Below are positions 26,401 to 63,078 of a stretch of DNA of 64,000 nucleotides, piece after piece; positions within the stretch are counted from its first letter, which is position 1, and the number at the start of each line of letters is the position of its first letter. This stretch comes from Saururus chinensis (lineage: Eukaryota; Streptophyta; Magnoliopsida; Piperales; Saururaceae). A program made the translations under genes and the position numbers. The stretch is from contig CP141149.1 of the NCBI GenBank assembly GCA_035235625.1, forward strand, positions 34,713,753-34,777,752, given 5' to 3'. The notes below the pieces were generated by a model, which was not told the origin of the DNA, ran no database searches, and saw only the letters and a list, made by a program, of their open reading frames with translations.

Positions 26401-29400
26401 CTCGTCGTTGGCTTCAGTTCTTACCCGGGGCTGAGTACTCTTATAATATTGCTTTCCATACATCGATTGGCACTACTCCATTCCAGATTGTTTATGGGCG
26501 TCCTCCCCCCACGGTCCTGGCTTATGTGCCTCATAGAGCAGCTGTTGGTGAGGTGGACCTTATGTTGCAAGATCGGGATACCCTATTACGTTAGCTTAAA
26601 CTAAATTTGTCCAAGGCTCAAAACCGCATGAAACAGGTCTATGATGGGCATCGGACTGATCGAGAGTTCCAGGTTGGCGATTTGGTGTTTGTTAGCTTCT
26701 CCCCGCATCAGCAGTCTTCACTTTATGCTCCTCCCAGCTCGAAGCTCGCTCACCGTTTCCATGGCCGGTATCCCATTCTCCAGCGTATCGGCTCTGTTGC
26801 CTATCGGCTCCAGCTTCCAGAGGGCTCGTCCGTCCATCCAGTTTTTCATGTTTCTCGCCTGCGCCGTTTCGTGAGTGATCCATCTCAAGTGGTTTCCAGT
26901 CCACCACCGCTTTTGGCTCCTATCTCTCCGCCATTGCGCCCTTCTGCTCTTCTTGATACTCGCCGGATTCGACGGGGTGGCCGTTTAATCCCCGAGATAT
27001 TAGTCGCTTGGCATGGTTGTCCCTTGGAGGATGCTTCGTGGATGCCAGAGGAGGATTTCTATGCTCGCTTTCCTGATTTTGCGCCTTGAGGACAAGGCGG
27101 CAGCGGAGCGTGGTGGATTGTTATGGATCATAATTAGTATGTTTTGGTTTAATTAGGATGTCTTGGACCATTAAACATAGGTATTATTATGTAATAAGGC
27201 CCAGGCCCATTAAGGGCAGATTATGTAAGGGTTTCTCCGCCCTAATGGAGAATAGGCAATTTTAATCACGTTCTGAATTCTCCCTTCTCCTCTATCGACC
27301 CAAGTTTCCCCCTTTTCATTCGCCCTCCTGGTTTCAAACGAACCAGCAAGGGTCCTCCCTCTCCTTTCATCCAATTTCATTACCCAATTCCCAATTATAA
27401 TCCTTAGGGATTATATCAGGGCCTCACACAAAGCTCACTTGGGACTACATGCTATGTCCAACGAAAACCTAAGGGTTTGTTGGGCAGATTCGTTGGGTCA
27501 TTATTATTTTCCATATGCTCATAGTGCAATTTTGATCTGTCATCTTTGAAACATGAGCGGAGTAAAAACAACTGAGGCTTTTCCAACAGCCACGGGAGTG
27601 CTACAGTTACTCATCCTTCAGATTTATATTCCTATCCTAAGACAAATACTAATATGGTAAATTTTACATAGTACAAAGCCAACGTCTCATCCGTTAATGT
27701 GGAGATGTGGAGTGGGGAATATCTACAAATATACCCACAAAATATCAGGTTATTAAGAAAAGAAATACCAAAACTACCACACCTTTTATCTACTACTGGG
27801 AGCACAGAACAGTTCTGAGTATTCATCCACTAAACCTACACATCTGCATGCATCTTCCACTACTCATCCATAATTCATATACCACCACTTTAAGGGCAAA
27901 GACAAACAGTTCTTGGAAAACACTAATTTAAGTCACAGGCATGACTAAAGAAATGTGAATATGCAAAGAAGTCAGATGATCTTGTACAAACAGTTATTAA
28001 AGTAGATTTCTCGTGAAAGAGGGAAGAAGTTGAATGCTTTGTTTACCAGAGTACCTTAATGACTGCCCCTAGGATTGCATCAGTATAGCCTATTGAAACA
28101 CTTGACCGGAGATTTATGCCATCTCTTTGAATTCCAGGGATATCCTCAATATCAAGATATACAAAAAGGTCCCCAGGAGGACCCCTGTTTAAAGGGATAA
28201 CAGAAGTGAATAAGTAGCTCGTTTTCTTACACAAATACAAGAAAATGATGATTTGTCAATTAAGAAAATGCAGCGAAAAAAGTAAAAGCATAAGAGAGGG
28301 TACCACACCAATGTAAACACCTAAAAAAGACAGACACTATAACCACATGCCCTTATTCAATATTATTTCTAAATAAATCTCACTGGATTTAATATGAGCA
28401 ATAAGATGACAATATCTAAAATAAGCAAGCAAAAGAGTATTTATGAGAAGATATATGATGCATTTCCTGATAGGGCCATAAACAATCTTCTTTACAAGAT
28501 ATGCATGATAAAAATGCATTGAAGTTGCTGCTGAAACAATATGCATGATAAAATCGTATTGAAGTTGCTGCAGAAACAAGTCAATGATATCAATGATCGA
28601 AGCCATTGGAAACCACCACACTAGCTATCGCTTTAATTATGTCAAATTCATGCATGACTAAAAATAATTCATAGGTACCTCAAAATTATAGATCACCAAT
28701 GTATGTGACTCAGTGCTTAAACAAGACCCAATGCCAGCAACTACTCTGAGACAAAGAAATACTCCCTCCGTCCCACATTAATAGTTCCATTTGGTTTTTC
28801 AAAATGAATTAGTAAGTGCATTTTCAAAAACCAAATGGAGCTATTAATGTGGGACGGAGGGAGTACATATTATCAATCTTCAATATATGAATAATGTAAA
28901 TGAAAAACAATCTGTCCATGCGTAAAAGGATCAATGTGAAACATATTGTACCTGTTCTGAAGGTGAATGGGCACATAGAACAAAGCAAAAACTACCATAT
29001 CCAATACGTGAAAAAAAAACATCCAGCTTCAGAGAAGAAAAAGGACTTGAGCAATGCAAACGTTGAAAAACAAGGGGGGGAACATACCCTTTTGGACCTG
29101 CATCACCTTCTCCACGGACTCTCAGAGTACTACCTTTGCTGACTCCAGGCGGAATTTTAACTTTGATATCTTTCTTAATGCGAAGGCGCCCTTCTCCACC
29201 ACACTTGCGACAATACTCAGATATATTTTCACCGTCACCCCCACAATTTGGACAGACTGAAACCTGACATTTAATGAATCAGCTCAAAATAAAATAAAAA
29301 CAGGATGTATTCCATTTACTGCCCAAATATCTCAAACATATGATAGAAAATGATCTAGCAACAACTACTGCAGGGAACCAGCCTCACTGAAAGATTAATG

Positions 29401-32400
29401 TAATCATGAGAAATTAATGCTTCACTGTACATCAATTTTAAGGAATAGTTAAAACAACAATAAGATGAAAAGATCATGATCACATCCGTCTTCTCCCGAC
29501 AAAGAAGGCCAGGCACCAAACAGCGCAAAACAAAAAAGAAAGTAACAGCGAGGGCCAAGATGCCAATATCATAAACAGGAGGAGAATTGTGCACATGACC
29601 ATCAGGTAACTACAACGCAAATGGTCCACATTCATACTACAGGGCTTCATTTTTGCCATATGTCATGTAAAATGAACTTGTTAAGAACCGGTGATGCAAT
29701 TGAAAAAGAAAAACATAACAAACCTTTGGATCTGTTGAAAAATCCATGACCCATTTGTAAAATTTCTTTCTATGAGCCACATCATGCGATATCAAATTTT
29801 GAGTTCAAACAATCTGGTTTCAGTTTCAACTTTGTTATAAATGACGCACATTTGTAATTTAACAGAGAACGGGGATAAAAAGAAGAGCATATGTAAGTAA
29901 TACCTGAGAAAACAGACCAAAAGGTGTCTGCTCTGTTCGCATAACCTGACCCCTTCCACCACACGTTGAGCAGATTCTCTTTTTTGATCCGACCTTTGCT
30001 CCAGTACCAGAGCAAACATCACATGTTTCCAGATGAGACAGCTCAAATTCTTTCTCTGCTCCAAAGATTGCCTCAGAAAATTCCAAAGTCATGTCATAGC
30101 TGAAACATATTAATGCAAGTAGTTATTTGAGAACTGATAAAGAATTATGTACAAACTATTATTACTGCAAGTGGATACGTCAATTAATATTATTTGCAAT
30201 GTCCTTTCAATCAAGTGAGATATCAAATAAGAATGCAAATTACTAAATAGGCAAACCAAAAGCACAAAATAATAACATGAGACCAACCACAAAACTTTTT
30301 ACGCCGGAGAAAATAACAAATTCAAAGTAATGGATTGAGATTAAATAATCCTGGAAAAAAGTATCGTTTATATAGGATTAAGGAATACGAGCCAAATATG
30401 ATACACATTTCATTGCCATGATTCCTTGAAAGAATGTGAAGAAGAGACAACACTCATTGATTACTAAAAAACCAGCTTCCGAACTGTATGAAATAGTAAA
30501 AACTACCTGGATATAACTTGTGTATATTTGCTCTAACATAACTTACCGTATATCTTCACCCTTAAGGACAGCAGACTGCTGACGTGTTCTAAATCCTGTC
30601 TGATCCATGTTAGCAAAACCACCCATGCTAGCACCAAAGAAAGTTTCGAATAGGTCAAATGGATTAGTCTGCAAAAAGAAGAGCACATGATAACAAATCA
30701 ATGACCACAACATAACCTAGAAAAAAAAACAGAGCAGTCAATTATAAAGGAAATCTAAAACAGCTGATTATGAGTCCAATAAGTACCAAGGCATGCAATG
30801 AGCCCCCATATTTCTGTAATAACAACCATTACCTCTAGTTATGACTCTCAGCATTATGTAAAAAATGGGTTGTAATTATAAATTTACAATATAACAGCCC
30901 AAACTTACTCCTTTATGAGCTGCTCAGAGTTAGGGAACTTGCAACTATTCCTAAGTGGAAATCATGTTAGAACTAGAAAATTAGCTAATTACATGATTTT
31001 CCAAGATGACTAAGCAAAATGGCTGACACAATCCATGTGAAACATAAGCAAAAAATACTATGGCAAGTACAACAGACTTCAAAATTCCTTAATGGGAAAA
31101 AAAGAAACGAAGAAGTATCTTTAATTTTCTTTACAACAAGCATAAACAAGTCAGGTTCTTTGCCCTGACAATCTCTTGCTGAGTAGGCATAGCTCCTCTA
31201 GATGATATGGAGGGCCATGTTCAAATCCAGAACATTCACCAGAAACCAATCTTGGAATAGATTGTGGCATAGAAAATTTTTCTTCCTCCAATTTTTGCTA
31301 AATAAAACTTTGCCTTTGTGCTTAATATATTAAATCAACTCCATCAAACGTTAATGAAATCAAATTATGAGATTTGATTCAAGAAAAGAATATTGTATAA
31401 ACTACCGTATAAGCACCAGCAGAGCCTCCCATTGAACTCTTTACGCCAGCTTCACCATACTGATCATACAAAGACCTCTTTTTGTCATCTGAAAGTACCT
31501 GTATTACCATACTTCAAAGTTCACAAAATAATTACATCAAATGGAGAATAACAAATTGACATTTGACAAAAGAAGGGACAGTTGAAGAAAAAAGGCAAAA
31601 TGGTACACCATCTTTAATAAGAACAAGTGGCACAGGAAGACATGTTGGACAGTAAAGACGAATAAAAGAAGAACATTTGAAATAAGAAATGCAAAACCTT
31701 TGGTCAGATAGACTGATGACAATAACAAGACTTTGTCTCAACTTTAACAGCCTGGTTAAATAAACAAAAAAACTTTCAGCTGATGACAGGTAATTTAATG
31801 TCCTATGCGAATAATTTTCCTAGTGGACGCAACATCCGTTTTCTGCATCTCTAGTAAGCTAGAAGGACATTATTGTTATCTATCATGAATTTTGTTCCTC
31901 GTCTACACTTTTTTAATTTGGCAATCGTGAAATGTTTCCTACAAATAAGAAAATCTGAGGAATGAGTACATCAGAAAAAGCATCAAAACCAAATGAAGAT
32001 GATAACAACAAATGAAAGACTATAAAGCGTACAGCTTTGTTTGCTAGCGAAGAAGAAGAAGAAGAAAACACTGCATTTCTTATAAATAAATGATACTTGG
32101 TGCAATCAGTGGACTAATAAAACTTTACAATCAAGATAAAATTATGAGATATGAAAAATATCCTGCCTATAAAATTCAGAAATAACATAACGACAAGGAA
32201 AACCTTACAACAAAAGTAAAGTTTATATTTTACACATACCTCGTATGCCGCACTGATTTCTTTGAACTTTTCAGTCGCCCCAGGTTCCTTGTTGACATCA
32301 GGATGGTACTTCGCCGGAGGCAGAAGACAAAATCAGTATTACAGAGTAGACGAATGCGTAAACACACAAAATTAGTCGAATAAAGTCATTTCAATGCAAT

Positions 32401-32781
32401 GAACGGAAATACTCGTATGAACGAATGCATTAACTAAAAGTCGTCCGCTTGCGGCAAAGCCGGTAAAAGGGACGTGGTTATAAGAGTTACCTGGCGAGCC
32501 AATCTCCGATAGGCGGCCTTGATCTCCTTACTACTGGCAGACTTGGGAACACCAAGAGTCACATAGTAGTCAGCCGCTGCGGTGACTACATTCGGAAAGT
32601 GGCTGAATTCGTCGAACGAAGGGCACTTGGACTTCGTCCTCCGTTTGAACCTGTAGACAGGAAGGGAAACCCGAGTCCCGCCACTGAAGAAAGCAGAGCC
32701 AGAGCAGCTGAGATTGGGGGACTGGAACTCGGATGTTTGAGGATAAGAGAGGGAGGATAGAGGGGAGAGAGAGATGGCCAT
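20425..32781 (-). CDS. DJA4: Plastid DnaJ (type I J-protein), DJA4 ortholog
   Basis: Eleven exons join in phase into about 490 codons: 32781-32491, 32308-32240, 31498-31406, 30668-30547, 30099-29904, 29263-29088, 28184-28055, 21398-21238, 20867-20776, 20668-20572 and 20470-20425. The first 70 or so residues are Ser-rich and basic, like a plastid transit peptide. A J domain follows ([16 protein letters not shown] motif in YHPDVNKEP at the start of exon 2). After it come a Gly/Phe segment, four zinc-finger CxxCxG motifs (CDVCSGTG and CSTCGGRG in exon 5; CPNCGGDG and CRKCGGEG in exon 6) and the substrate-binding C-terminal domains ([24 protein letters not shown]). The C-terminus ends [10 protein letters not shown]. 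This is a full-length Hsp70 co-chaperone that would stimulate ATP hydrolysis by stromal Hsp70. The layout and motifs match Arabidopsis DJA4 better than DJA5/DJA6. Intron 7 (28054-21399) is enlarged to 6.7 kb by a retroelement. No coding defect is seen. Confidence 0.95.
21942..22241 (+). repeat. 5' LTR of the chromovirus
   Basis: The 300-bp LTR runs from TGTTATGGATCGTAATTAG to GGGATTATATCA. It is the same length as its partner at 27119-27418 and differs from it by five substitutions, with no insertion or deletion between them. Confidence 0.95.
27119..27418 (+). repeat. 3' LTR of the chromovirus
   Basis: The 300-bp right LTR begins TGTTATGGATCATAATTAG and ends ATTATATCA. It is preceded by the purine-rich stretch AGCGGAGCGTGGTGGA (about 27102-27117), the probable polypurine tract. 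Confidence 0.95.
28762..28863. mobile_element. Stowaway MITE, 102 bp, in DJA4 intron 7
   Basis: A near-perfect hairpin: CTCCCTCCGTCCCACATTAA at one end and TTAATGTGGGACGGAGGGAG at the other. TA lies on both sides (28760-28761 and 28864-28865). The arms are so similar that this is the youngest-looking of the Stowaway copies in the window. It sits between exons 6 and 7 as defined: strictly within the intron 29087-28185 of DJA4, upstream of the intron holding the retroelement. Confidence 0.92.
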
Positions 32782-33125
32782 GGTAGGGAGGGGGAAGAGT
32801 CAATGGAAACTAATAGAAAGAGAGAGTCGGCATGGCCGTGGCAGCACAGCAGCCGGGGTCCAGATTCCAGACCAAGGAACCGCCGAAGCAGAAGCTCTTT
32901 CACGGTGCAGACGTCTTTTTTGTTGTGTTTTTTTCCATTTTCGATTTCTCTTGTGAAAAGTTTTCTATGGACGAGAGGCAAACCACGCATGAAACAGAGA
33001 GGAGGGCCCCGCTGCCCCGGCCACACGCTCCCATCCCGGCCGCTTTCCCAAATTTCCAGTGATCAAATGAAATGGCCAGAGTTCACACTCTATTTTGTTT
33101 AAATGGTTGAATATTTAAAAAATAT

Positions 33126-33405
33126 TAGGCAAATTTTTAAATAATAATTTTAAAAAAATTATCAAATTAACTTACTTTGATAAATATTTTTTAAAGTGAT
33201 ATTAATTTTTTATCACATAGGCGTGATGATTATTTTTTGAAAAATTTGTCTAATTTCGTCCTTTCTTCGAGATGAAACCAAAATTTAAGTTAATTTTATT
33301 CTTCCAAATGATAAATTTAAAAAAATTAAATAAATTTATCATTTGAAACGATGAAATCACCTTAAAGGTTATTTCATTGTTTCAAACGATGAATTTACTG
33401 CATCG
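33126..33405 (+). repeat. Left inverted end of the outer element
   Basis: AT-rich end, 280 bp, whose inner 75 bp (about 33331-33405) aligns clearly and whose outer part aligns with gaps to the inverse of 45174-45385. It contains ATCACATAGGCG, a block often seen near plant MULE ends. Confidence 0.55.
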
Positions 33406-33409
33406 CCCG

Positions 33410-33743
33410 AACCCATGCACAAATGAATCCAGCCAACACTGAGGTAAAGAGGAGGATGGGTTGTAGGCTGCCGGTTCGGGTCCCGTAGACAGACGTTGGG
33501 CCCGTCCTTGCACTTGCCCATGCATTTGTATCTAACGACAGCTCCCTCGACGCCCACCTTCTTCTGGAACTCTTGCAACAACTGGGCGGCATTCGATTTC
33601 TGGCACTTGTTGTCCATGCACACCTTGATCCTCTGGTAGCATCCTCCCCCGCTCTCCAGTGCCGCATTCACAACGTCACCTCTCCAGATAGGGCCCTCCT
33701 CAGCCACCGCCGAAGAGGTGGTCATTTCTGCACCTAGTGGCAA
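33410..33743 (-). pseudogene. DGAT3-like fragment (thioredoxin-like Fe-S domain)
   Basis: The minus-strand frame reads GGGCYQRIKVCMDNKC, then AAQLLQEFQKKVGVEGAVV, then YKCMGKCKDGPNV. This is the C-terminal thioredoxin-like [2Fe-2S] domain found in plant soluble diacylglycerol acyltransferase 3, which typically reads KVCMGGKCKKSG, then GVEGAVVGCKCMGKCRDGPNV. The four cysteines expected of that domain are present (CMDNKC and CMGKC). The rest of DGAT3 is absent on both sides: it stops at an AT-rich terminal repeat below and meets a UGT fragment of opposite orientation above. It is best read as a captured exon piece. The reading frame continues past the family match into sequence I do not recognise. 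The family call is from motif memory. Confidence 0.6.
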
Positions 33744-34201
33744 AGCCTATATCTTTGGTGGCGGCTCTTCCTTCAACAGCTTCGCCTCTTTAGTAGAGTT
33801 TGTACCTACTGCCGCTCTCAGCCCTGTGCAACAGCAAGAGCTCTCTTCCCTTGCTGCCCACTCCGCCTTCTCAATAGCTGGTTGCTTCACCGACAAGATC
33901 CAATGGTTCGTGAGGCAGCAGCCTGCCTACATGAAGTATGACTTGGTAGTTATCTTCAACTCCAGCTGCTCACTAGAGGGAAAGTATATAGACGTGCTAT
34001 GCGATTCGGCCTCTAGCCCAGTTCAGGCCCGGTGGGCAGTGAGACCGTTGAACCCAACCGTCATTAGCACCCACTAGGGGCCACGTCCAAGGCACCCATG
34101 CTTGGAGTGGCTGAACATGCAACCACCCGAGTCAGTCCTCTACGTCTCGTTCGGGACCATGACATCCATATCAAGCAAGCAGGTTCAGGAGTTGTCCAAT
34201 G
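33744..34201 (+). pseudogene. UGT (zeatin O-glucosyltransferase-like) fragment, left part
   Basis: The frame reads KAYIFGGGSSFNSF, then FNSSCSLEGKYIDVL, then WAVRPLNP and, after an in-frame TAG near 34076, CLEWLNMQPPESVLYVSFGT and SKQVQELSNG. This is the middle of a family-1 glycosyltransferase, closest in wording to the zeatin O-glucosyltransferase (UGT93-like) group. The N-terminal 120 or so residues are missing; their place is taken by the antisense DGAT3 piece. At 34201 the frame is cut by the inner element and resumes at 44608. A functional member would transfer glucose from UDP-glucose to a cytokinin side-chain hydroxyl; this copy cannot. Confidence 0.8.
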
Positions 34202-34567
34202 GGAAGCGTTTTTTATGCTTCCGAAAAGAATGAGCCTATAATAAGCCCCGAATCAAATAACGACACGTTGCAAAGAGGAGGGCACCGGAACGGAGACGGA
34301 GAAACCAGGTTAACGTTAACTCCGTGTTTCCTTCCGTCCGCTTCCCACTTTCAACTCCCGCTTCCTTTCAACTCCCGCTTCCCACCCCCTGTTTACCGAG
34401 TGTCTCCTCTGTCGCCGGGAAGATACTGAAGGATGAGCACGAAGGAAGAGCACTAGGGCAAAAGCGTTTTGGGCGGAGGAAGGAGCCATCTTTCCCGGTG
34501 AAGTGGGCTGCTAGCCTGCTATTGGTCGAAACCCTAGCGGAGCTCCCTCTTGCTGACGCTATCACCA

Positions 34568-34802
34568 ATGGCGACTCGCCGAGTCCTCTCCTCCCTCCTC
34601 CCGCCGGCTTGCCTCCAAGCCCGCCACCGCCCTCCTCGCGCCGAGAGCCCTCACCGGCCGTCCCTCGCCCAAGGGCTTCCTCCTGTCCCGCACGCTCGAG
34701 TATGCCACCTCCGCGGCCGCCCCCTTCCCACCGGCGACACCGCCCGCCGGGCCTAAACCTACGGGGCCCAGTGGTAAAATTACTGACGAGTTTACCGGGT
34801 TT
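34568..34802 (+). pseudogene. ATP2: ATP synthase beta (mitochondrial) exon 1, left-arm copy
   Basis: The ATG at 34568 opens MATRRVLSSLLPPACLQ, the usual start of the mitochondrial presequence of the F1 beta subunit (family form MASRRLLSSLLR). Further on, in another frame, come YATSAAAAPF and GKITDEFTG, the conserved end of this exon in plants. One net frameshift separates the two parts, so the exon is not translatable as it stands. Upstream sequence back to about 34330 looks like the gene's own leader. The expected next residues (AGAIGQV) do not follow; unrelated sequence joins at about 34803. A near-identical copy lies in the right arm. Confidence 0.8.
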
Positions 34803-35036
34803 GGCAATTGGTCCTTCCACACTCAGACTTCTCTGGAGCCCCCTCCCAAACTTCTCTCTCGATCTCCCTCTCTGATCGAGCTCCGCACCGCACCCTGGTT
34901 GACGGAATCGGAATTGGCTCCTCTCTGCGGCCTTTCTCCCTAAACCTTAATCTAGGTTGTGCCGGCGGTTCACCTCCTCCTCCTCCTCAGAGCCGAATCC
35001 AACCAGCTTGCGAAAATGGGGTGAGTTCCCTTTGCT
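34803..35036 (+). other. Possible third captured fragment: leader and start codon of an unknown gene
   Basis: Between ATP2 exon 1 and the kinesin exons lies CT-rich, leader-like DNA ending CTTGCGAAAATGGGGTGAGT. This has the look of a 5' UTR, an ATG GG start and a GT donor (GTGAGT). No further exon of such a gene is recognised. It is repeated in the right arm. It could be the 5' end of the kinesin piece's neighbour or of a third donor gene; I cannot name it. Confidence 0.35.
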
Positions 35037-35440
35037 GCTGCTTTGATCATTGTGCGTTTCTTTCTCTCTGGGAAACTTTGCTGCCTTTTGTATTTCCTTT
35101 CCATTCACTTATCTGTCAACTTGATCTGTGATTTTTGAAGCCGATGATATGAAGGTTCATTTGTTTTTCTGTTCTTTTTTTTGCTGAAGTCTAGTGTATT
35201 TTCGTTCTTAAGGTCTTATTGGAACCCCATTTGAATCTGTGTTATGATATTACTCATAACATTGTCTATTTTACTTATAAAGCAGCATTAGACTTTTAAA
35301 GCCAGTCCCCCAATTTGATATCTCAAAAAACAGAAATTTCAGAATGTTAAATTCTTTGGTTATCATGATTTGCAAAGACTGATTGGATTTATTTATAATA
35401 ATCTTCTGACACATTGCTAGAAAGTTTCACCTACTTACAG

Positions 35441-37938
35441 CTCATAGACATGTGGGATCCAACAACTTCAATTTGCTCAGCAGCAGAAGTCATACAATAT
35501 TCACGCTGGTATGTTATTTATTGACCAGAAAAATCTGTTCAATTGATGAATTTAATTGAAAAAAAACATAGGTTAAATGCCGCATTTATGCTTTTTACCC
35601 AAACGATTGGATTGATAATTAAGGAAGAATAAATGGCCAGTAGTGGAAAAAGCTGCATTCATGGTAAATTTCCAATTATTAATATGATTCCAGTTGTAGT
35701 TGTTTTGTGCCTTTGATTAAGATTTTTCCCATTAGGTGAAGCTGGTGTTAGGCCCTCTCTAAATTGTCCATTCAAAGGGTGTGTATTTTCAATAATAGCT
35801 TTAGTGTGCTATAAAGGTTCTGGTTGCTTTATTGACATGCCCAGCATAGACTCATAAAGGCATGTATGGATTTTTGAAACGTAACAAAATTGGTTAAAAC
35901 TATACTTGGCTTGTGTCAAGCTTGTTTATATGTTAATGGCCGGCTGGTGGCTTAGGAATGATCTTCTGTCTTCTTCCAATATTTGGGTTACTTAGTAATT
36001 CTTGTCATGATGTATGTATCTGGTATTATTAATTATTTAATGCCAATGTATCCTTTAAATTGTCTTGTTACAGACCATAGAGAGTAGTCCTTGCGGTGAA
36101 AATTGTGAAGGAGAAGCTGCGAACTTGTCTCAGTTGGTAAGATATTTCATTTCCAACCTACTTCAGTTGAAAAAAGTACCTTCCTTTCATATTCTATATG
36201 ATTGTTTAGTTAGAGTCTGATATTTAGCAAGCTAGATGTTTATTCTCATGGATTTGGCTGTATAAACTTTATATTTCTATCTATATTCAAGTTTTAGTGT
36301 GCAATAGATTGGCTTCTTATTTGTTTTGGTATTTTACTTATACCTGCAGAACCTCATCGATCTGGCAGGTTCTGAGAGCTCGTGGGCTGAAACCACCGGT
36401 GATAGGAGGAAGGAGGGATCTTACATCAATAAAAGTTTGCTAACTCTTGGAACTGTAAGGCCTGATATAGATCTCTGATCACATACTTTTTCTTTTTGTA
36501 TCCTGTTTGTAATTTTCTCATTTAATGTCTGTATCCTTTGCTGTGTTGAATTCCTTTTCCAAAAAGGTGATATTTAAATGCCATAGAATCCATTGATGAA
36601 AAAGGAGATATTAGTAAATGCCATAGAATTTTTTGTTTGTTTAAGTGTTTATTCTAGTCAATTTACTGAAGTTTGGGATTACTTTATTTACAGAATGTGC
36701 TTTTGGACCCACTGTAACAAGAATTATTTAGATGGTTAGAAAAACCTTAGCCTGCACTTTTCCAGGCCATATGTCGATGGCTCACTTAGTTACTACCACA
36801 TATGCACTTGACACACTTACTCTGAAATTTGTACAGATGTATGGGTGGGGATCCATGCCCATCCAGAATATGAAATCCAGAATATCTTAGTAGCTCCTCC
36901 TTAAAATGCATTCTCATTGAGACATTAATTGACAAGATTGACCAAATGTGCTTAATTGCCTGGTTTGCATGGGGCCTTTTTACCATACCTTCTCCAGAAG
37001 TTGCCACTAATTTGATTTTCATAAATTTATTCTCGTGCAAGCATTTGTTACGTGTCAATTTATTTGAAAATTAATCAATAATGTTTTTCTCTTTGCTCAT
37101 ACTGTCAGTGTTGTTTGTTTAAGGTGTCTTTAATTTCTTACGCATATTGTACTTTGCAGGTCATTGCAAAGTTAACTGATGGAAAGGCTTCACATTTACC
37201 TTATAGAGATTCTAAGCTCACCAGGCTACTTCAATTGTCTTTTAGTGGTCATGGCCGTGTATCTGTAAGCTCCTCATCTTGCCTTGTACCTACAATTTTC
37301 AAAAAAGGCTTTCGATTAGTTGTTCAGTATTCCTGAATTATTGTTTTCCTAACCATATCTACATGCATCTTCTTTCAAAATTTGTAATTTGGTACACAAC
37401 ATTGACATTGACCAAAGTGAATTATTTCATATACTTTTTTACTTATTACCTGCAGCTCATCTGTACTGTTACACCACGCATAACACCTTGAAATTTGCTC
37501 ACCGTGCAAAACATATTGAGATTCAAGCATCTCAAAATAGGGTATATCCTCTGAAATTAATTCTGCTGGCTGTAAGATGTTAGTATTCATGTTCCTGTTG
37601 TAACTGTAGATACTTGATGAGAAATCTCTAATCAAGAAATACCAGGATGAGATTCGAATCTTAAAGGAGGAGCTAGAGCAATTAAAAAAGGGAATTGTGT
37701 CTATTCCGCCCCGGAAAGATGTGGGAGAGGATGATATTGTCCTCTTAAAGCAAAAGGTATGCTGGATAAAGTTATGCAATTATGACTTCCCGTATCTTGC
37801 TGCAATTTTATTGAGGTTCATGATGGTGCAAGGCATACTGATAAATTTACTTATTTTGTTTTTAGTAAATATATGCTATGCATCTTGACATATGGTATTC
37901 ATCCCATTTTAGTTTTGGTTATTGTAGGAATTTGTGTC

Positions 37939-37982
<44 letters not shown>

Positions 37983-38526
37983 GGCACAAGGTGTATCCTT
38001 TATAGCACTGCATATAGGTTAATTACTTTTTTCTTGCTTGGTATATGTTAACCACACTCTTTGTGATGTAAACTGAAAAGCTAGAAGATGGACAATTCAA
38101 GCTACAATCAAGGTTGGAAGAAGAAGAAGATGCTAAAATTGCTTTGCTAGAGAGGATTCAACGATTGACCAAACTGATTTTGGTATCGAGCAAAGCTTCG
38201 CAATCATCACGATTTCCCCAACATCCTCTTCCAAGGAGAAGACATTCATTTGGAGAGGAGGTTGAATACTATTGTACTCTCTTTTGTTCATTGCTTACAA
38301 TTACTCAATCTGTTTGATTATTTATGTGTTTTAATGTAAGTATTTACATGATTATTCAATAATGCTCATGGTGACCTGTAGCTTGCATACCTTCCTTACA
38401 GAAGGCGGAGTTGAAAACTTTGATAGGTGTATTACACTGGAAGTCAGTGGTGAAACTGTTGATGATACTTCTAAAGAGGACAAAAAGGGAAGGAAACAAG
38501 GACTCTTAAATTGGTTCAAATTGCGG
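35441..38526 (+). pseudogene. Kinesin-7 (KIN7D-like) gene fragment, plus-strand copy
   Basis: Exons with GT-AG borders: 35441-35508 (HRHVGSNNFNLLSSRSHTIF), 36074-36136 (TIESSPCGENCEGEAANLSQ), 36350-36454 ([20 protein letters not shown]), 37160-37264 ([20 protein letters not shown]), 37456-37541 (LICTVTP, then KFAHRAKHIEIQAS), 37610-37756 (KKYQDEIRILKEELEQLKKG), 38081-38260 (LEDGQFKLQSRLEEEEDAKI) and 38381-38526 (LAYLPYRR, then GLLNWFKLR). These are switch I (SSRSH), switch II (DLAGSE), the end of the motor and the neck coiled coil of a plant kinesin-7. The ATP-binding P-loop exons and the tail are absent. Defects: a deletion after LICTVTP with a frame change, another frame change after LAYLPYRR, and Trp in place of the usual Lys after GSESS. 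Introns are kept. It is a captured genomic piece, not a retrocopy. Confidence 0.88.
37936..37982. repeat. Compound (GT)n(AT)n microsatellite
   Basis: A GT run followed directly by an AT run in an intron of the kinesin fragment. Confidence 0.9.
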
Positions 38527-40125
38527 GTATGCACGACAAGAATCATGCTAAAAGTGGTAATATACTTTCAAAATTAGATTTATTAGGAAAGAAAATAAAG
38601 ATCATGATCGGAGGATAATGAATTACACGAAGAACTTCCATTCGAGGCACCAAATTTAGAAGATTATCAGTCATGGGCAAATAAAATTGTTTATTTAATA
38701 AGTTTGGTATTTTCAAAGAAATGAAAGAATTATGGGACTTGTAGCCATTTGTATTATTCTTAGATTTTTTTACTTTTTATAAATTATTTTGTATAAAATA
38801 TTTAATAGAATAAAATCATTGCAAAGTAATAATTTTATATAGATGCATGTGCATAATAATTAATGTGTATTTGAGTTAATATAAATTTTTATTAATTTTA
38901 TTTTAAAAAATAAAAAATTTATGTCGAAGATATTTTTTTGGCAAGTGTTTTACCTCATTCAAAAAAAGTGTAAAAGGACAAATAAAAAGGTCACCTCATT
39001 AAAAAAATGTGTAAAAAGACATAAATATAATATTCTCTATTAACATAAATTTTTTATCTAGTAATTTTTTTAAATAAATCCTTAACCATAGAATTTTTTT
39101 TTCCATAACCCCTAATAGGCCCTAAGCTTGGAGAGAAACAGGTTTGGGCACTTTGAAAACTCTTCTTACCTAGACATAATGTCAGCAAAGCAGCTCATTG
39201 TTATTAAGGGGCTGTTTGGGTATTGAATCGTGAAAAGATTCAGCTGATTCAGTGTTAATTCAGCACTGAATTATTAGAATCTTGTTTGTATATTGAAGCT
39301 GTATTAAATTAAAAATTCAGCACAGTAATAAGATTCAGTCCGTTTCAGCCTGAATCAAGCATGAATCACTGAATCACCTCAGTCGATTCAGTCTCCTAAT
39401 CACCATTTTAAAAATTATAGATTCTATTATTTTTCAATGGTTATCGTTCATGTCGATTTGAGCTTAAAAAAATGCGTCATATAGGTAGGGCCCACTTTAA
39501 AAGTTTAAAATTACCTACCCTTGTGGGATCTTGTTTAATAGAGCTTGAATTTAGGAATGTAATGGTACTAAGAACGTGCATATCCGAGTTCGAAAGAGAG
39601 AGTTAGAGGTGTTTAAAGTTTTAAGACTGGGTTTGACGTGACATCTAAATTTATTTTAACAAATTCTATAACCAAACGTAATTCATAATCAAGGATGAAT
39701 TTACTGAATTGAATCGCTACTAAATCGAATCATTACTGATTATGAATTACCCAAACGACCCCTAACCCTCCAATGGGAGAGATAGCTCCAAATCGAGGAA
39801 AGAGTCTCTATTTATGATAAGTCATGAAAAGTAGGACAATAGTGAAAAAATTAACCAAGCACAAAAAAAAACAGACCGTAATGTGTTTATTGTTAAAAAA
39901 AACCTAGGGCCATTCTAATAACATTGGTGACCTTTGTAAACTCAAGTCATCTGTCCTCTACACATTAAGATTTTTCTAAAAAAAAGACAATAAATAAATA
40001 TAAATTAAATAGTCGAAAAGAGCTAAGTTAACTTTAAAAAATGCAAATTCATAGGCATTACATCCTTGTACCATCAAATTATTATCACTTTAAACACAAT
40101 GCCAAGCAGGATCATAAACTTAAAT
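38527..40125. other. Loop spacer of the inner element, AT-rich, with a MITE
   Basis: Between the kinesin and ATP2 pieces the loop is A/T-rich with no gene. A probable hAT-type MITE spans about 39207-39764: it starts AAGGGGCTGTTTGGGTATTG and ends GAATTACCCAAACGACCCCT, inverted termini of the GGGG..TGTTTGGGTA type. I could not settle its target duplication. Confidence 0.6.
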
Positions 40126-42087
<1,962 letters not shown>

Positions 42088-42351
42088 CTGACAACGGAAA
42101 CAGAGAATATAATCAGTAAAATCACAATTGATTAATCAAGTAATTGATAAGTACACAAATCAATAAGAAGGGCACTTCTAACAATCTTACTAATATCTCC
42201 TTTTTCATCAATGGATTCTATGGCATTTAAATATCACCTTTTGGGAAAAGGAATTCAACACAGCAAAGGATACAGACATTAAATGAGAAAATTACAAACA
42301 GGATACAAAATGAAAAAGTATGTGATCAGAGATCCATATCAGGCCTTACAG

Positions 42352-43363
42352 TTCCAAGAGTTAGCAAACTTTTATTGATGTAAGATCCCTCCTTCCTCCT
42401 ATCACCGGTGGTTTCAGCCCACGAGCTCTCAGAACCTGCCAGATTGATGAGGTTCTGCAGGTATAAGTAAAATACCAAAACAAATAAGAAGCCAATCTAT
42501 TGCACACTAAAACTTGAATATAGATAGAAATATAAAGTTTATACAGCCAAATCCATGAGAATAAACATCTAGCTTGCTAAATATCAGACTCTAACTAAAC
42601 AATCATATAGAATATGAAAGGAAGGTACTTTTTTCAACTGAAGTAGGCTGGAAATGAAATATCTTACCAACTGAGACAAGTTCGCAGCTTCTCCTTCACA
42701 ATTTTCACCGCAAGGACTACTCTCTATGGTCTGTAACAAGACAATTTAAAGGATACATTGGCATTAAATAATTAATAATACCAGATACATACATCATGAC
42801 AAGAATTACTAAGTAACCCAAATATTGGAAGAAGACAGAAGATCATTCCTAAGCCACCAGCCGGCCATTAACATATAAACAAGCTTGACACAAGCCAAGT
42901 ATAGTTTTAACCAATTTTGTTACGTTTCAAAAATCCATACATGCCTTTATGAGTCTATGCTGGGCATGTCAATAAAGCAACCAGAACCTTTATAGCACAC
43001 TAAAGCTATTATTGAAAATACACACCCTTTGAATGGACAATTTAGAGAGGGCCTAACACCAGCTTCACCTAATGGGAAAAATCTTAATCAAAGGCACAAA
43101 ACAACTACAACTGGAATCATATTAATAATTGGAAATTTACCATGAATGCAGCTTTTTCCACTACTGGCCATTTATTCTTCCTTAATTATCAATCCAATCG
43201 TTTGGGTAAAAAGCATAAATGCGGCATTTAACCTATGTTTTTTTTCAATTAAATTCATCAATTGAACAGATTTTTCTGGTCAATAAATAACATACCAGCG
43301 TGAATATTGTATGACTTCTGCTGCTGAGCAAATTGAAGTTGTTGGATCCCACATGTCTATGAG
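42352..43363 (-). pseudogene. Kinesin-7 fragment, right-arm copy
   Basis: The inverse counterparts of the first three kinesin exons of the left arm are present: the HRHVGSNN exon at about 43363-43296, the TIESSPCGEN exon at about 42730-42668, and the [12 protein letters not shown] exon at about 42455-42352. It shares Trp after GSESS with the left copy, so that change predates the inverted duplication. One difference is Asn in this copy where the left copy has Asp in IDLAGS. The fragment stops where the arm ends; the later exons are not repeated. Confidence 0.85.
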
Positions 43364-44004
43364 CTGTAAGTAGGTGAAACTTTCTAGCAATGTGTCAGAA
43401 GATTATTATAAATAAATCCAATCAGTCTTTGCAAATCATGATAACCAAAGAATTTAACATTCTGAAATTTCTGTTTTTTGAGATATCAAATTGGGGAACT
43501 GGCTTTAAAAGTCTAATGCTGCTTTATAAGTAAAATAGACAATGTTATGAGTCATATCATAACACAGATTCAAATGGGGTTCCAATAAGACCTTAAGAAC
43601 GAAAATACACTAGACTTCAGCAAAAAAAAGAACAGAAAAACAAATGAACCTTCATATCATCGGCTTCAAAAATCACAGATCAAGTTGACAGATAAGTGAA
43701 TGGAAAGGAAATACAAAAGGCAGCAAAGTTTCCCAGAGAGAAAGAAACGCACAATGATCAAAGCAGCAGCAAAGGGAACTCACCCCATTTTCGCAAGCTG
43801 GTTGGATTCGGCTCTGAGGAGGAGGAGGAGGTGAACCGCCGGCACAACCTAGATTAAGGTTTAGGGAGAAAGGCCGCAAAGAGGAGCCAATTCCGATTTC
43901 GGCAACCAGGGTGCGGTGCGGAGCTCGATCAGAGAGGGAGATCGAGAGAGAAGTTTGGGAGGGGGCTCCAGAGAAGTCTGAGTGTGGAAGGACCAATTGC
44001 CAAA

Positions 44005-44236
44005 CCCGGTAAACTCGTCAGTAATTTTATCACTGGGCCCCGCAGATTTAGGCCCGGCGGGCGGTGTCGCCGGTGGGAAGGGGGCGGCCGCGGAGGTGGC
44101 ATACTCGAGCGTGCGGGACAGGAGGAAGCCCTTGGGCGAGGGGCGGCCGGTGAGGGCTCTCGGCGCGAGGAGGGCGGTGGCGGGCTTGGAGGCAAGCCGG
44201 CGGGAGGAGGGAGGAGAGGACTCGGCGAGTCGCCAT
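44005..44236 (-). pseudogene. ATP2: ATP synthase beta exon 1, right-arm copy
   Basis: The inverse copy of the left-arm exon, opening MATRRVLSSLLPPACLQ at 44236 and ending GKITDEFTG. It carries the same frame break as the left copy plus a few private substitutions. On the minus strand it precedes the arm's kinesin piece and then the 3' ATP2 exons, so ATP2 is split by kinesin DNA along this strand. Confidence 0.8.
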
Positions 44237-44607
44237 TGGTGATAGCGTCAGCAAGAGGGAGCTCCGCTAGGGTTTCGACCAATAGCAGGCTAGCAGCCCA
44301 CTTCACCGGGAAAGATGGCTCCTTCCTCCGCCCAAAACGCTTTTGCCCTAGTGCTCTTCCTTCGTGCTCATCCTTCAGTATCTTCCCGGCGACAGAGGAG
44401 ACACTAAACAGGGGGTAGGAAGCGGGAGTTGAAAGGAAGCGGGAGTTGAAAGTGGGAAGCGGACGGAAGGAAACACGGAGTTAACGTCAACCTGGTTTCT
44501 CCGTCTCCGTTCCGGTGCCCTCCTCTTTGCAACGTGTCGTTATTTGATTCGGGGCTTATTATGGGCTCATTCTTTTCGGGAGCATAAAAAATGCTTCCTG
44601 TCCAATG

Positions 44608-45040
44608 GCCTCAAGAGGAGTGGCCACAGGTTCTTGTGGGTTATGAGGGAGGCTGACATAGCAGACATATTTGCCGATGATGATCATGAGAAGAGGAGAT
44701 CATACCAAGTTGGGAAGGAGTATGAGGCGGAGGTGAAGGGGTGGGAATGGTGGTAAGGGACTGGGCTCCCCAGGTGGAGATTATGGCTCACCAAGCAGTG
44801 GGTGGGTTTATGAGCCATTGCGGGTGGAACTCGTGCATGGAGAGCCTGAGCATGGGCATGGCGATGGAGGCCTGACCCGTTTGACCAGCCTAGGAATGCA
44901 CTACTGGTGACAGGGATACTCAGGGTGGGGGTGACGGTGAGGGACTACTGAGGCTCTAGGGGAGTTGGTCATGGGGGTGGATGGGGACATAGAGAGGAGT
45001 GCAACGGTCATGAGCGCTGCTGCAGATGGTGTTGTTGTGA
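44608..45040 (+). pseudogene. UGT (zeatin O-glucosyltransferase-like) fragment, right part
   Basis: After the second TGTCCAATG the frame continues LKRSGHRFLWVMREADIADI FADDD. The wording WVxRxADxADIFAD is typical of zeatin O-glucosyltransferases. In a shifted frame the PSPG box follows: [16 protein letters not shown] and [15 protein letters not shown], with the UDP-sugar-binding His, Trp and Asn present. Then come DQPRNALLVTG and RVGVTVRD with stops and frame changes between. The C-terminal part fades out by about 45040. Together with 33744-34201 it makes one UGT remnant missing its N-terminus. Confidence 0.8.
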
Positions 45041-45173: not shown

Positions 45174-45385
45174 CGATGCGGTGAATTCGTCGATTAAAAC
45201 GATAAAACAACCTTGAAGGTGATTTTGTCGTTTCAAATAATAAATTTATATTTTTTTTAAACGATTTCTCCTTTGGAAGGAAAAGGCACGTAGCATTGGT
45301 ACCTATGTGGCGAAAATCAACACCGCTTTGAAAAATATGGGTTAATTTAATAATTAATTTTTTAATTATTATTTATATAATTTTC
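45174..45385 (-). repeat. Right inverted end of the outer element
   Basis: The inverse shows AAATTTATTATTTGAAACG, GGTTGTTTTATCG and GAATTCACCGCATCG, matching the inner part of the left end at 33331-33405. Further out, CGCCACATAGG and ATTATTAAATTAACCC match the left end with gaps. Confidence 0.55.
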
Positions 45386-47700
45386 TTAAAATAGTATTAT
45401 AAATTTATTTATTTTTATCTAATATGTAAATATTATTATTTTTAAAATATAATTATAAATATTAGATATAAAAATATTATTTTATATTAAAAATAAAAAA
45501 AACTTTAAACTTTAGAAAGCCAACATGTTAGAATATAGAGCATGTTTGTGATTTTTTTTTTAAGATGAGAGAGGGTAAAGTTGACCAATGGGCATACATT
45601 TTTGGAAGAATATCAAGTCAGGCAAGGAGTAAGGTCATTTAAGGCAAATTATACTATCATTTAAAACAAATCGGACTCACATGTGTGAATTAATTTTAAA
45701 TCTTAATATTTTATACCCCTGCAGACAAAGTGATCTCGTTATACCCGTTAAAACAACTCCCTCCCTCTCTCTCTCTCCCAACCCCAGCTTTGTCTCCATC
45801 CATGCCTTGGCTATGTCTCTGTCTTCTCCCCAACTACATCTCCGTCTCCACCTTGGCTTTGTTTTAACCTTGTATCCACTAAAGCTTTTGCCTCCATCCC
45901 AATTGGTTATATGGATTTGTTGTGACGGAGTTGTGGCGACTAGGATGGGTTATAAAGACGTAGGAGGGGCTGGGTTGTGATGGGAATAGGGGTGTCTAGG
46001 ATGTGAAGGGAAGTGGGGGTGGTTGGGTTGCAATGGCCTATAGAGGGGGGTTGGTTTGTTATGAATTGTGTTTGCGATGGAGTTGCGGCGATTAGGATGG
46101 GTTACAAAGACGTAGAAGGAGCTAATTGCAATGGGGAGTAGAAGGTCTAGGTTATGAAGGGGAGTTGGGGGTTGGGTTGTGAAGGCATGCAAAGGGGGAT
46201 TGGGTTGTTATTGTTTGCAGGAAGGTTGTGTTGATATTGTTTGCAGGAAGGTTGGGTTGCAATTGTCGGGGGAGGGGATGGGGAATGGAGGGCCAGTTGT
46301 GATGAGGAGCAAGGGGTTGGTTTGCGATAGCATACAAAGGGAGTTGGGTTGCAATAGATGGAAAGGGGGGTTAGGTTGAGATGAGCTGCAATGGATTGTA
46401 GGGGGTTGTGTTGTGATAATATGTTGAAGAGGGTTGAGTTGTAATGGCCTTGAGGGGGCTAGATTGAGATGAACTGTAGAGGGGGCTGGGCTACAATGGT
46501 ATGTAGGGGAATTGCATCATAATGGGGAGTAGGGGAGGTCAAGTTATAATGGGGAGTAGGGGGTGTCTAAATTGCGACGAAGAACAAGAGGTTGGGTTAT
46601 AACATTTATGTTTGTAAGGGAGGTTGCATTGTGATTCGTTGATGCAATAATAGATAAACATATAGCCGACACTCGCATGAGAGTCAATACTCGCATGAGA
46701 GGGGCGGAGACGAGGGAAAAGACATAGGAGAGGGGCAAAAACAAAGAAGAAGGTAGAATAGAGGGGTAAAGACAAGGGAGCTAAAGATCAAGGAGAAGAT
46801 AAAAGGAAGAAGCTAGGCTGAGACAAGGCGTTAGAGATGAGAAAGAAGGTGGAAGGGAGGGGTGAAAGGCAAAAGGAGAGGCTGGACAAGGATGAAGTGT
46901 CGGAGATGAAAAAGAAGGCAAAAAGAGAGGTGAAAGGAGCTGTATGAAGTGATAAGGTTATTTTAGGGTCTTAAGTAAAAATTATTTTCTTCCAATTTAC
47001 AGAACAAGCATATGCTTATTTTGAATAATAAATGAATTTGAGGAGTATGTGCAACCTAAGCCTTACGTCGGCAGCAAATTATGTGACTGAAAATATTTTC
47101 TATGTTTCTCACTTTTTATATATTTGCTCTTATTTTTTATATACTTAACATATGAATTTATAAAAATTATTAATATTTAAAATTAATAGTACATATGCTA
47201 GTTCTTGTTAACATCAATACCACTTACCCAAATGGGCGCACTAATACGTACCATTATTAATCTTACATATAAATATTTCCCAAGCATTATTTATATTAAG
47301 TTCATAGAAATTAGAGGATATAGAAAATGCATCCCATCCGATGGGCATCACAACTTGTGCGCACAGAGCTGAAGTTCCACAAACTTCCAACAGAATGGAC
47401 ACATGAAAGTGGGCTCGAAAGTGTACAGGCCCATTTAGAATTACGCCCCAGATCGATGCACTAGTTGGTGCGGCCACAGCCGCCGGCTCATTCCCGCAGT
47501 AGTGTGCTCTAAGTCGCTGGCCGCTTTTAACACGGTAACCTAACGCCTACCAACCATGGTAATTCATAATTTCGTATTAAGCCAATTAATTACGGACGCT
47601 TATCAAGCAGCAGCAGCATCCCCTACCTTTCGCACTGTCGCTTGGTGACGGTTTAAATACCGCATTCAATGGCCGCCTGAAGGCCGAAGGGGGTTCATCT
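45386..47700. repeat. Intergenic low-complexity region with GGGTTG-rich degenerate repeats
   Basis: From about 45928 to 46560 the plus strand is a run of worn GGGTTG/GGGGTTGGGTTG motifs. One longer unit of about 151 bp is repeated: GAGTTGTGGCGACTAGGATG at 45929 and GAGTTGCGGCGATTAGGATG at 46080, each followed by a diverged GGGTTGTGATGG tract. A purine-rich stretch (AGAAGG, GGAGGGG) follows to about 46930 and includes a short duplicate of ACTCGCATGAGAG near 46670-46700. No gene is seen. The rest to 47700 is AT-rich and then the promoter region of the CUE gene. Confidence 0.6.
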
Positions 47701-47931: not shown

Positions 47932-50116
47932 ATGTCTGCAATAGTGTGCGGAAAGAGGTCCTTCTTCGAAGAGCTCCGCCCCACTTCGCCCCCAGCCTCC
48001 TCCAAGCGTCTTCGTTGCTCGTCCTCCCCGGTCCGCCTCTCGCCCCCGCGCCCCCACCAGTTCTCCTCCCCCTCCCCGCTTGACCACCTCGTCTCTCTCT
48101 TCCCTGACATGGACAAGCAGGTGCATTTTTCTTCCTATTATATACTTCTGCACTTTGGCGTGCTTTCTCCGAAAAGTTTCACATTTTCACGTTTTATGCA
48201 TCAGATGACCCTCGGATTGAGTATAGCACGCTAGATGTGACAATTGCCCGTCAAATTGTTATCTTAATTTTGTTCAAAGTATAAAGATTAACTAAGGAGT
48301 AACATTTTTTTCTAAATCACGATCTTCTTTTGTTGATTTGAGTTTTCACTGTGGTTCAACGAGGATTCGGGGCAATTTATTTAGGTTTAGTTCAGATTAC
48401 TTTCTATCACATTTTTTCCATTGGTATTTGAGGCATTGATTTGTAAACTGAGGTTGTTATACGGGAGTAGTTAAGTGTCAAATTTGTGTAAACCAGAGTC
48501 TCATGTTCAACATAATACATAACACGAGAAGATTCTTTAAGCATAATGTGGTATTTGGTAAATACTGATACGACGCTCACTACGATAATGCGTTTGATTA
48601 TATGTCTGAACATGTATATTAAAGACTTTGTTTATCAATTATTTGATTATTGGTATATTTCTGGATAGTCTTCATTATTAACTTCTTTTGCATGACTATT
48701 TTCAGTTTATTGAGCAAGCTCTTGAAGCATGTGGAAATGATTTGGATTCTGCCATCAGGAGTCTGAATGAGCTTTCTTTAGGATCTTCTGGAAGAAATAT
48801 ATATTCCATTGATGTTAGAGAAGACACGGGAACTGGAAGAACTGATTCACTTTTATCAGGTCTCTCTTCTCTTTTATTCTTCATTCTTGGTTTGTGTCAC
48901 TTAAAATTATGGTTATGATTTGTAAAAAACATTTGTGACCTTTTTTGAGTTTGTATGTTGTATTAAAGCACCATAGAAGTAGACATTTATAATATTTGTT
49001 GAGTTTGAATGTTGCATTAAAGTTGAATGCTGCTACTATTGAAATTTTATGATTTGTAAAAAACATTTGTGACCTTTTTTGAGTTTGTATGTTGTATTAA
49101 AGCACCATAGAAGTAGACATTTATAATATTTGTTGAGTTTGAATGTTGCATTAAAGTTGAATGCTGCTACTATTGAAATTAGCTTGTCCTTCTTCCGTTG
49201 GGAAAATTTCTTGAAGTAAAGGATAAAGTGAAGAGATATAGAAATGTGAGTTAAAAAAAATTGACAGGAAGTGAAGAGGAACTAATATGCTTTTGTTGTG
49301 GCAATTGGCTGCAGGTGGTGATGTTTCTGGTGCTTGTGACGATACACCTGCTGCAGTAAATCAGTTCCCTATGGATGGTTCTGAATGGGTGGAACTTTTT
49401 GTGAAAGAAATGCTGAATGCCTCTGATGTAAATGACGCGCGTTCTCGGGCATCAAGAGTTCTTCATGTTCTAGAGGAGTCCATCATGGCTCGCACTGGTG
49501 TTGAGGCACCACAAAACTTACACAAGGTAGTGCATCTTTTCAACTGGCATTGCTTACTTATATTCTTTAACTGACCAATTAACTTCTTCTAATACCATCA
49601 GGAAAATGTGATTCTAAAGGAACAAGTTGAAGTACTCCTCCGGGACAATGCTATTCTCAAACGAGCAGTTGCAATTCAACATGAGCGTCAGAAAGAATAT
49701 GATGAGAAGAATGAGGAGACGCAGCATTTAAAGCAGTTAGTGTCTCAATACCAAGAGCAGTTAAGAACACTGGAGGTATGAATGCACTTACTTTTATTGA
49801 ATGGTGAAGATTATAATGGCGACGTGTGTGTTTGCTTGCAACTGAAATTCTACTGTGGCCAATAGAACAATATAGCATCACTGATCACAATTGTAAAACT
49901 GTTGTTCGGCTATGCACTTTGTACACATTAGCTTTAGCTTTGCTGAATGGTAGATCTTGACATTATTTTGCTATGGCAAACTCACCATTAGCTTTCTCAG
50001 AGTAACTTATGCCCATTGTTGATGAACAGGTGAACAACTATGCCTTAACAATGCATCTGAAACAAGCACAACAGAATAACTCCATACCGGGTCATTTCCA
50101 TCCAGATGTCTTTTAG
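47932..50116 (+). CDS. CUE-domain (ubiquitin-binding) protein
   Basis: Five exons join in phase: 47932-48120, 48706-48859, 49315-49526, 49602-49775 and 50030-50116, giving about 271 residues. The N-terminus MSAIVCGKRSFFEEL, a Ser/Pro-rich stretch and SKRLRCSSSPVR match the plant At5g32440-type family. The CUE domain spans the exon 1/2 border: FPDMDKQ, then EQALEACGNDLDSAIRSLNE, the usual acidic-hydrophobic ubiquitin-binding helix pair. After it come EWVELFVKEMLNASDVNDAR and a coiled coil (ENVILKEQVEVLLRDNAILK to QEQLRTLE), ending HLKQAQQNN. It probably binds ubiquitin or ubiquitinated partners; the precise role is unknown. An in-frame ATG at 47749 exists upstream, but 47932 matches the conserved start. 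Intron 2 and the 3' flank carry tandem duplications. Confidence 0.9.
48913..49180. repeat. Tandem duplication of 134 bp in CUE intron 2
   Basis: Two copies (48913-49046 and 49047-49180) of a 134-bp unit that begins TTATGATTTGTAAAAAACAT and ends CTACTATTGAAATT. They look identical over their length, so the duplication is recent. It does not touch splice sites. Confidence 0.92.
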
Positions 50117-53666: not shown

Positions 53667-54540
53667 AATCTAAGATGGCGGCAATTTTCTGAGCTGCATT
53701 TTTTACAATAGAGGAGCTTCAACTTGTCGACAATACAAGTTTTACTGCTTTTCTTCCAGCAAAATTGTAGAAATAATAAGAGATCCTATTTCTTAATAAA
53801 AAAGGGTTATTTGACACGATAATCCAATAGAGAAGGTCGAACTGAAAATATGTTGCAAAAGGTCCTTCTTACCGTTCCTTGCACAATATTCTTCTTCAGT
53901 ATTATATAAGAAACATATAAACAAATAATGGGTCTACAGTTTTATTGATTCCCGCCCGTTCCAGCCATAACCTCAGGGAGACAGGAAGTGGGTCTAGGCC
54001 CCAAGCGGCAGCTGTTCGCAAAGGAAAAAACAAGCAAATGGTGAAGAGAAGATGAAACAACGGTGGGGTAGAAAAATAATAGCATGGCACTCTAAGGTGG
54101 GAAGATGTCATGGTTTACGATGGATCGAGCCTAAAGAAGGAAATAAACAAGTGGGCCCAGTTGCTCAAATATGTTAATATACACAAAATGGAAAGGCCCA
54201 TGTTTAAATTTTCCCCCCTTACAGGTAAGGCGAGTCACAAATCCACAACCCACTTTTTTAAGGTACCAGCGGCTTATTAGGATTTGTTGTGTTATTAAAA
54301 ATGAGCCAACACTTGCGTACCCCCTTATTTGTTCTGGGCCTTTGGCCTACACTCGATCAGCAGCCGCCGTCATCAACCTTCTTCTCAACCTCCATCCCTG
54401 GTCCTAGCTGGAGGCAGAGGAACTGCTCGTCTCATCGAAGGAGAAGAATTGGAGGCGGAGGAACTGCTCGTCTCATCGAAGGAGAAGAAGACTCTCTTTT
54501 TAAGCACATAAGAGGTTGAAAAACGATTAAAGCGGCAGCT

Positions 54541-63074: not shown

Positions 63075-63078
63075 TTCG

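Follow-up and report, generated by a model that had tools for sequence, protein, structure and literature searches.

A Pack-MULE-like element in Saururus chinensis whose long mirrored arms appear to be a late copy of one end onto the other

How can a transposon come to carry exons of the same host genes at both of its ends, in mirror image and over 2.4 kb? The question is raised by an element of 10,397 bp at positions 34202–44598 of a 64,000-nucleotide stretch of Saururus chinensis DNA (assembly GCA_035235625.1, contig CP141149.1, positions 34,713,753 to 34,777,752 of the forward strand; hereafter the window, whose coordinates we use throughout). We consider it likely that this is a non-autonomous, Pack-MULE-like element of the Mutator type, sitting in a UGT fragment, and that its left end was later copied onto its right.

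Boundaries, arms and insertion site

The sequence TGTCCAATG flanks the element on both sides (34193–34201 and 44599–44607), identical at 9/9 bases and directly adjoining the inverted repeat at its outer limits; given the base composition of the window, the chance of a perfect 9-bp match at two fixed places is 5.4e-6. Both ends of the element consist of a 21-mer with an 8-bp hairpin (GGAAGCATTTTTTATGCTTCC), on the plus strand at 34202–34222 and on the minus strand at 44578–44598, with one mismatch at each end; at up to three mismatches, the 21-mer has no third site in the window, and 100 shuffles gave 0 matches. The perfect target-site duplication and the inverse ends reported in the preliminary description were thus both recovered. 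A promoter and terminator scan of the terminus yielded nothing usable, the scan being bacterial and the host a plant. Viral contigs sharing 16 terminal bases (10 loci) were discarded as chance matches, whole-element blastn against all 10 giving identities of 16–19 bp only.

The left arm covers 2416 bp (34202–36617, plus strand) and the right arm 2412 bp (42187–44598, minus strand). Their alignment of 2416 columns contains 19 mismatches and one 4-bp gap, an identity of 99.05%; the 2.4-kb length first described stands, while the accompanying figure of about 98% was slightly low. Of the 2392 21-mers in the right arm, 2054 are present without change in the left. Between the arms lies a spacer of 5,569 bp, which is not palindromic.

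Members of the Mutator superfamily are marked by target-site duplications of 8–11 bp, typically 9 bp, and by long terminal inverted repeats. Our element has the 9-bp duplication, and its inverted repeats, at 2416 and 2412 bp, are far longer than usual. A Pfam search in six frames of 34202–42186, which spans the left arm and the spacer and covers the right arm as a copy of the left, found no transposase and only the families of kinesin and ATP synthase. The lack of a transposase and the captured host fragments, of kinesin and ATP synthase beta, are marks of a Pack-MULE. The 9-bp duplication, the long inverted ends, the captured exons and the missing transposase are best read as those of a Mutator-type, Pack-MULE-like element, with Mutator membership judged by structure. 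The anatomy, the duplication, the joints and the lesions common to both arms are seen directly in the sequence, and Mutator transposition and the direction of copying discussed below are inferred. The Pack-MULE-like character had been proposed before, and its structure and cargo were upheld; the origin of the arms we revise to what appears to be a secondary mirror copy.

The surrounding UGT fragment has a left part at 33718–34192, with homology support only from about 34076 on, and a right part at 44608–45030, whose right end is approximate; both are on the plus strand. When the flanks are joined to restore the empty site, the local UGT frame closes and aligns to UGT93BB1 across the junction, with no gap there. 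The crossing frame of the joined stretch has stops at codons 124, 215, 234, 246 and 280 and the junction near codon 165, that is, one stop 40 codons before the site and four beyond it. Downstream, the conserved UGT sequence lies in another frame; the 119 residues upstream in the stretch have no Pfam match. The split UGT frame described earlier does close locally at the empty site, but the stops and the frame change are not those of an intact gene. Since they are located outside the site, we rejected the destruction of a working UGT by the insertion as a reading; the UGT appears to be a fragment, broken before or after the insertion, and no functional gene need have been lost to the element.

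Around the UGT, 33080–33405 and 45174–45511 form a further inverted repeat, with an alignment score of 104 against 51.5 for the best random window pair (up to 200 pairs drawn, less those under 3 kb apart). The repeat extends inward in patches to about 33510/45115, with a score of 83 against a next best of 44 among 268 random pairs, one of which scored 148 and presumably represents the real 2.4-kb arms. This diverged repeat may represent an older Pack-like element within which the newer one is nested; for an outer target-site duplication of the older repeat, the sequence offers many AT-rich 8–10-mers and no single choice. On the minus strand at 33369–33743, there is a weak 2Fe-2S-like ORF (E 0.0029, below the Pfam cut-off), part of which seems to lie inside the inverted repeat 33080–33510/45115–45511 on both sides; NCBIfam added nothing further for either the UGT or this ORF. 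A DnaJ-domain gene adjoins the locus on the minus strand, at approximately 29800–32800.

Captured host sequences

The left arm contains three exons of a kinesin motor on the plus strand (35441–35508, 36074–36136 and 36350–36454), each with AG/GT borders, and the right arm has their copies on the minus strand (43296–43363, 42668–42730 and 42350–42454) with 0, 0 and 1 differences from the left. Spliced, the three arm exons match Pfam PF00225 with an E value of 9e-21. The remainder of the kinesin fragment is found in the spacer at 37160–38526 on the plus strand, in exons at about 37160–37264, 37456–37541, 37610–37756, 38081–38261 and 38380–38526, and the second and the last of these have frame breaks. 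Judged by its sequence, the identity of the captured fragment as a kinesin is firm. The family is a different matter: the best solved-structure matches are OSM-3 in the first two places, which we take to be a kinesin-2, and CENP-E in the third and fourth. The exons in the arms had been assigned to kinesin-7, of which the kinesin part holds with PF00225; the "kinesin-7" label leans on CENP-E being among those best matches and on what we assume of plant kinesins.

Both arms, in which the preliminary description had placed exons of ATP synthase beta, contain a fragment of exon 1 of the mitochondrial protein's gene, at 34568–34799 on the plus strand and at 44005–44236 on the minus strand; after one frame change, it matches PF11421 with an E value of 4.9e-8. 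The rest of the gene, approximately seven exons with approximate borders, occupies 40126–42087 of the spacer on the minus strand. Its first exon has a frameshift, its second a TAG and its fourth is broken; the P-loop reads GDANVGKT, as against GGAGVGKT in two references. Where three solved references are identical, 17 of 146 positions are changed, corresponding to decay at about 5% of nonsynonymous sites, or about 4% when three residues that are presumably normal in plants are set aside; the estimate is based on three distant references and assumes 2.2 nonsynonymous sites per codon.

Between ATP synthase beta exon 1 and the kinesin, the left arm has a 5'UTR-like exon ending in ATGGG/gt (about 34800–35020, plus strand), with its right-arm copy at 43784–44004 on the minus strand. 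Of the two captured nuclear genes claimed at first, kinesin and ATP synthase beta were thus both confirmed and the count was not, the captured pieces numbering at least three with the 5'UTR-like exon. The captures contain introns and are DNA-level copies, and capture of a retrocopy was rejected on the same ground. Between the kinesin and ATP synthase parts, the spacer consists of AT-rich sequence, a 35-bp filler and a MITE. The filler (39123–39157, plus strand) is an exact inverted copy of 41563–41597, an exon–intron border of the ATP synthase, and as a templated insertion it suggests copy-and-switch repair. The MITE (39208–39762) has the ends GGGG..GTTTGGGT and TAA duplications at 39205–39207 and 39763–39765; we presume it to be Harbinger/Tourist-like.

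Direction and timing of the mirroring

The kinesin intron that starts at 36455 in the left arm crosses the arm edge at 36617 and runs on until the kinesin resumes with its next exon at 37160, whereas at the inner joint of the right arm (42186/42187) the intron is cut and ATP synthase beta sequence comes next. Since the intron is unbroken at the left and cut at the right, the right arm is most simply explained as a copy of the left; the left end is probably the original, or donor, and the right end the recipient that was overwritten. In the right arm, ATP synthase exon 1 agrees in order and strand with the later exons in the right part of the spacer, the middle being missing; given this arrangement, each end probably already carried a terminus with exon 1 when the copying began. 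Such a common stretch would in turn provide homology where repair could begin. More divergence is then expected in this older part of the arms, and the observed 9 substitutions in 592 bp, as against 10 in the remaining 1820 bp, agree weakly (Fisher P 0.030, itself weak, with a boundary that comes from the anatomy and was set after the differences were known). By eye, the right-arm copy ends in the second unit of an imperfect short direct repeat of the kinesin intron (GATATT..AAATGCCATAGAAT, 36570–36630), which is a possible slipping point.

The history that we propose would run as follows. A Pack-MULE-like transposon took up intron-containing ATP synthase beta, kinesin and the third, 5'UTR-like exon at the DNA level, and its insertion, duplicating 9 bp of the target, would have struck an already broken UGT fragment. 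Before the mirroring, its right end would have consisted of the terminus and ATP synthase beta from exon 1 on, and its left end of the same terminus, exon 1, the 5'UTR-like exon and the kinesin, in this order. Repair may then have started in the common terminus-plus-exon-1 stretch and copied the left end to the right over 2.4 kb, until the copying stopped at an illegitimate joint within an ATP synthase beta intron. Such an event would convert a one-sided cargo to mirrored arms; a transcript of the element, should there be one, is predicted to fold into a hairpin RNA whose stem, about 2.4 kb long, contains exons from two host genes.

The arms appear to be a late, secondary mirror copy that postdates the decay of the captured genes. 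The frameshift in exon 1 is identical in both arms, and the reading is that the captured genes were broken before the mirroring. The arm-to-arm K2P distance is 0.0079, with transitions making up 15 of the 19 substitutions, and the roughly 0.4% per arm compares with the 4–5% decay of the spacer ATP synthase; the latter being about ten times larger, the mirroring would have come well after the decay. Taking the plant substitution rate as 1.3e-8, 7e-9 or 1.5e-9 per site per year puts the divergence of the arms at approximately 0.3, 0.6 and 2.6 million years, respectively. If the ATP synthase copy came instead from a pseudogene that was already old, which is conceivable, the order of decay before mirroring would not follow, and the decay would give no date for the capture. 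Nothing in the spacer shows whether the mirroring took place before or after insertion at this site.

The distribution of the differences bears on another explanation, in which the inverted arms are old and have been kept alike by repeated gene conversion and not by one late event. The differences are indeed patchy: one stretch of 849 bp is free of them (P 0.0047 under a uniform distribution), and the outer 724 bp contain 12 of the 19 (P 0.003, with a cut picked after the data were known). Conversion alone does not make the one-sided kinesin–ATP synthase joint at 42187, however, and we find it somewhat unlikely as a replacement for late mirroring, noting that both can hold together. The outer 724 bp have a GC content of 0.594, as against 0.354 in the rest of the arm. 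CpG decay was considered as the source of the outer excess and was not supported, CpG being touched in 2 of the 19 differences. In rice and maize, Pack-MULEs prefer the GC-rich 5' ends of genes (PMC3310237).

Inverted arms with unrelated inner halves and a single joint in the middle are also what one would obtain from two related Pack-MULE copies that had one end in common, inserted near each other in opposite orientation and lost their inner ends, with the outer pair acting as a macro-transposon. The spacer, however, contains no terminus at up to three mismatches, and the outer 359 bp have with it only a 15-bp blastn match (E 0.79); furthermore, the matching order of the ATP synthase exons at the right would have to be an accident or the result of an extra event, and we regard such an origin as quite unlikely. 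That the locus is no transposon at all, and instead an inverted duplication of a segment or an error of assembly with a chance 9-bp repeat, is very improbable. The repeat sits flush against either end, and the UGT frame is restored where the flanks meet; the spacer shows no palindrome, and a simple read palindrome would not have 19 differences between its arms, of which 15 are transitions.

Related elements and other features of the window

The nearest architecture that we found is that of Mu killer (Muk) of maize, in which both ends come from one end of MuDR, as a partial inverted duplication with an internal deletion, and a hairpin RNA of about 4 kb has been proposed (PMC3440606). In the Saururus element, too, both ends apparently derive from one end, as read from the anatomy of the arms and the joint, the direction being our interpretation. 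The cargo is different: the mirrored sequence consists of host-gene exons here and of the transposase gene mudrA in Muk, and Pfam did not find the mudrA/MULE transposase family in 34202–42186. At most, the element may work like Muk, and we do not class it as a Mu killer.

Acquired sequence can integrate into the extended TIRs of Pack-MULEs (Ferguson & Jiang 2012, PMC3310237). With the Pack-MULEs of that paper, our element has in common the 9-bp duplication, the non-autonomous nature and the intron-containing host fragments; the paper deals with tandem TIRs, whereas the arm here is a single 2.4-kb unit. This length is several-fold above the TIR ranges of 14–500 bp in PMC6446971 and "usually 100-500 bp" in PMC4858842, the latter also citing models that derive new TIR regions from repair and gap conversion on stem-loops. 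Foldback MULEs, FARE of Arabidopsis and MuTAnT of Medicago, resemble the element in their long foldable inverted ends and 9-bp duplications; in contrast to it, MuTAnT elements are mostly 200–300 bp, with captured genes not mentioned in the part of PMC4486113 at hand. Animal Pack-TIRs, attributed to gap filling or FoSTeST, likewise have captures joined by template switches, with short insertions at the joints; they differ in being animal elements, and the excerpts of PMC8277862 do not describe mirrored arms. Searches of an open-access library brought up no title or abstract of a mirrored, kilobase-armed Pack-MULE, which is not proof of absence. As far as those searches show, the kind of element is known, and what is new is the combination of kilobase-long arms, a composite cargo of host-gene sequence in them, and donor and recipient sides that can still be told apart.

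Gene capture by Mutator elements and the growth of long ends are still a matter of models, and the value of the locus lies in the joints that it preserves: a donor side that runs on unbroken, a recipient side that ends in a single illegitimate joint, lesions common to the arms and a templated filler. From one specimen, the events can be put in order, decay first and mirroring after. If the element is transcribed, exons from two housekeeping genes would become part of a double-stranded RNA, and whether captured fragments silence in trans could be tested directly; otherwise, the element would be a well-preserved but ordinary relic. More speculatively, the ends of such elements might grow by a ratchet of capture and mirroring, host sequence being acquired next to one end and this end then replacing its partner through one-sided homologous repair, so that each round would turn captured genes into a long hairpin stem, here that of a natural RNAi locus whose stem sequence derives from nuclear genes for ATP synthase beta and a kinesin; we think it unlikely that this generalization will hold.

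The window has a number of features apart from the element. Over its whole length, Rfam detected only a MIR171 precursor, far from the element at 851–955 and scoring on both strands. Direct duplications comprise one of 1.5 kb (58740–60262 and 61948–63470, 91.9%), one of 0.8 kb (81.7%, involving 53457–54271) and a 304-bp repeat that is 98.0% identical (21938–22241 and 27115–27418). Finally, 48913–49180 is a perfect 134-bp tandem duplication, and at 57562–57955, a unit of 55 bp is repeated approximately seven times.
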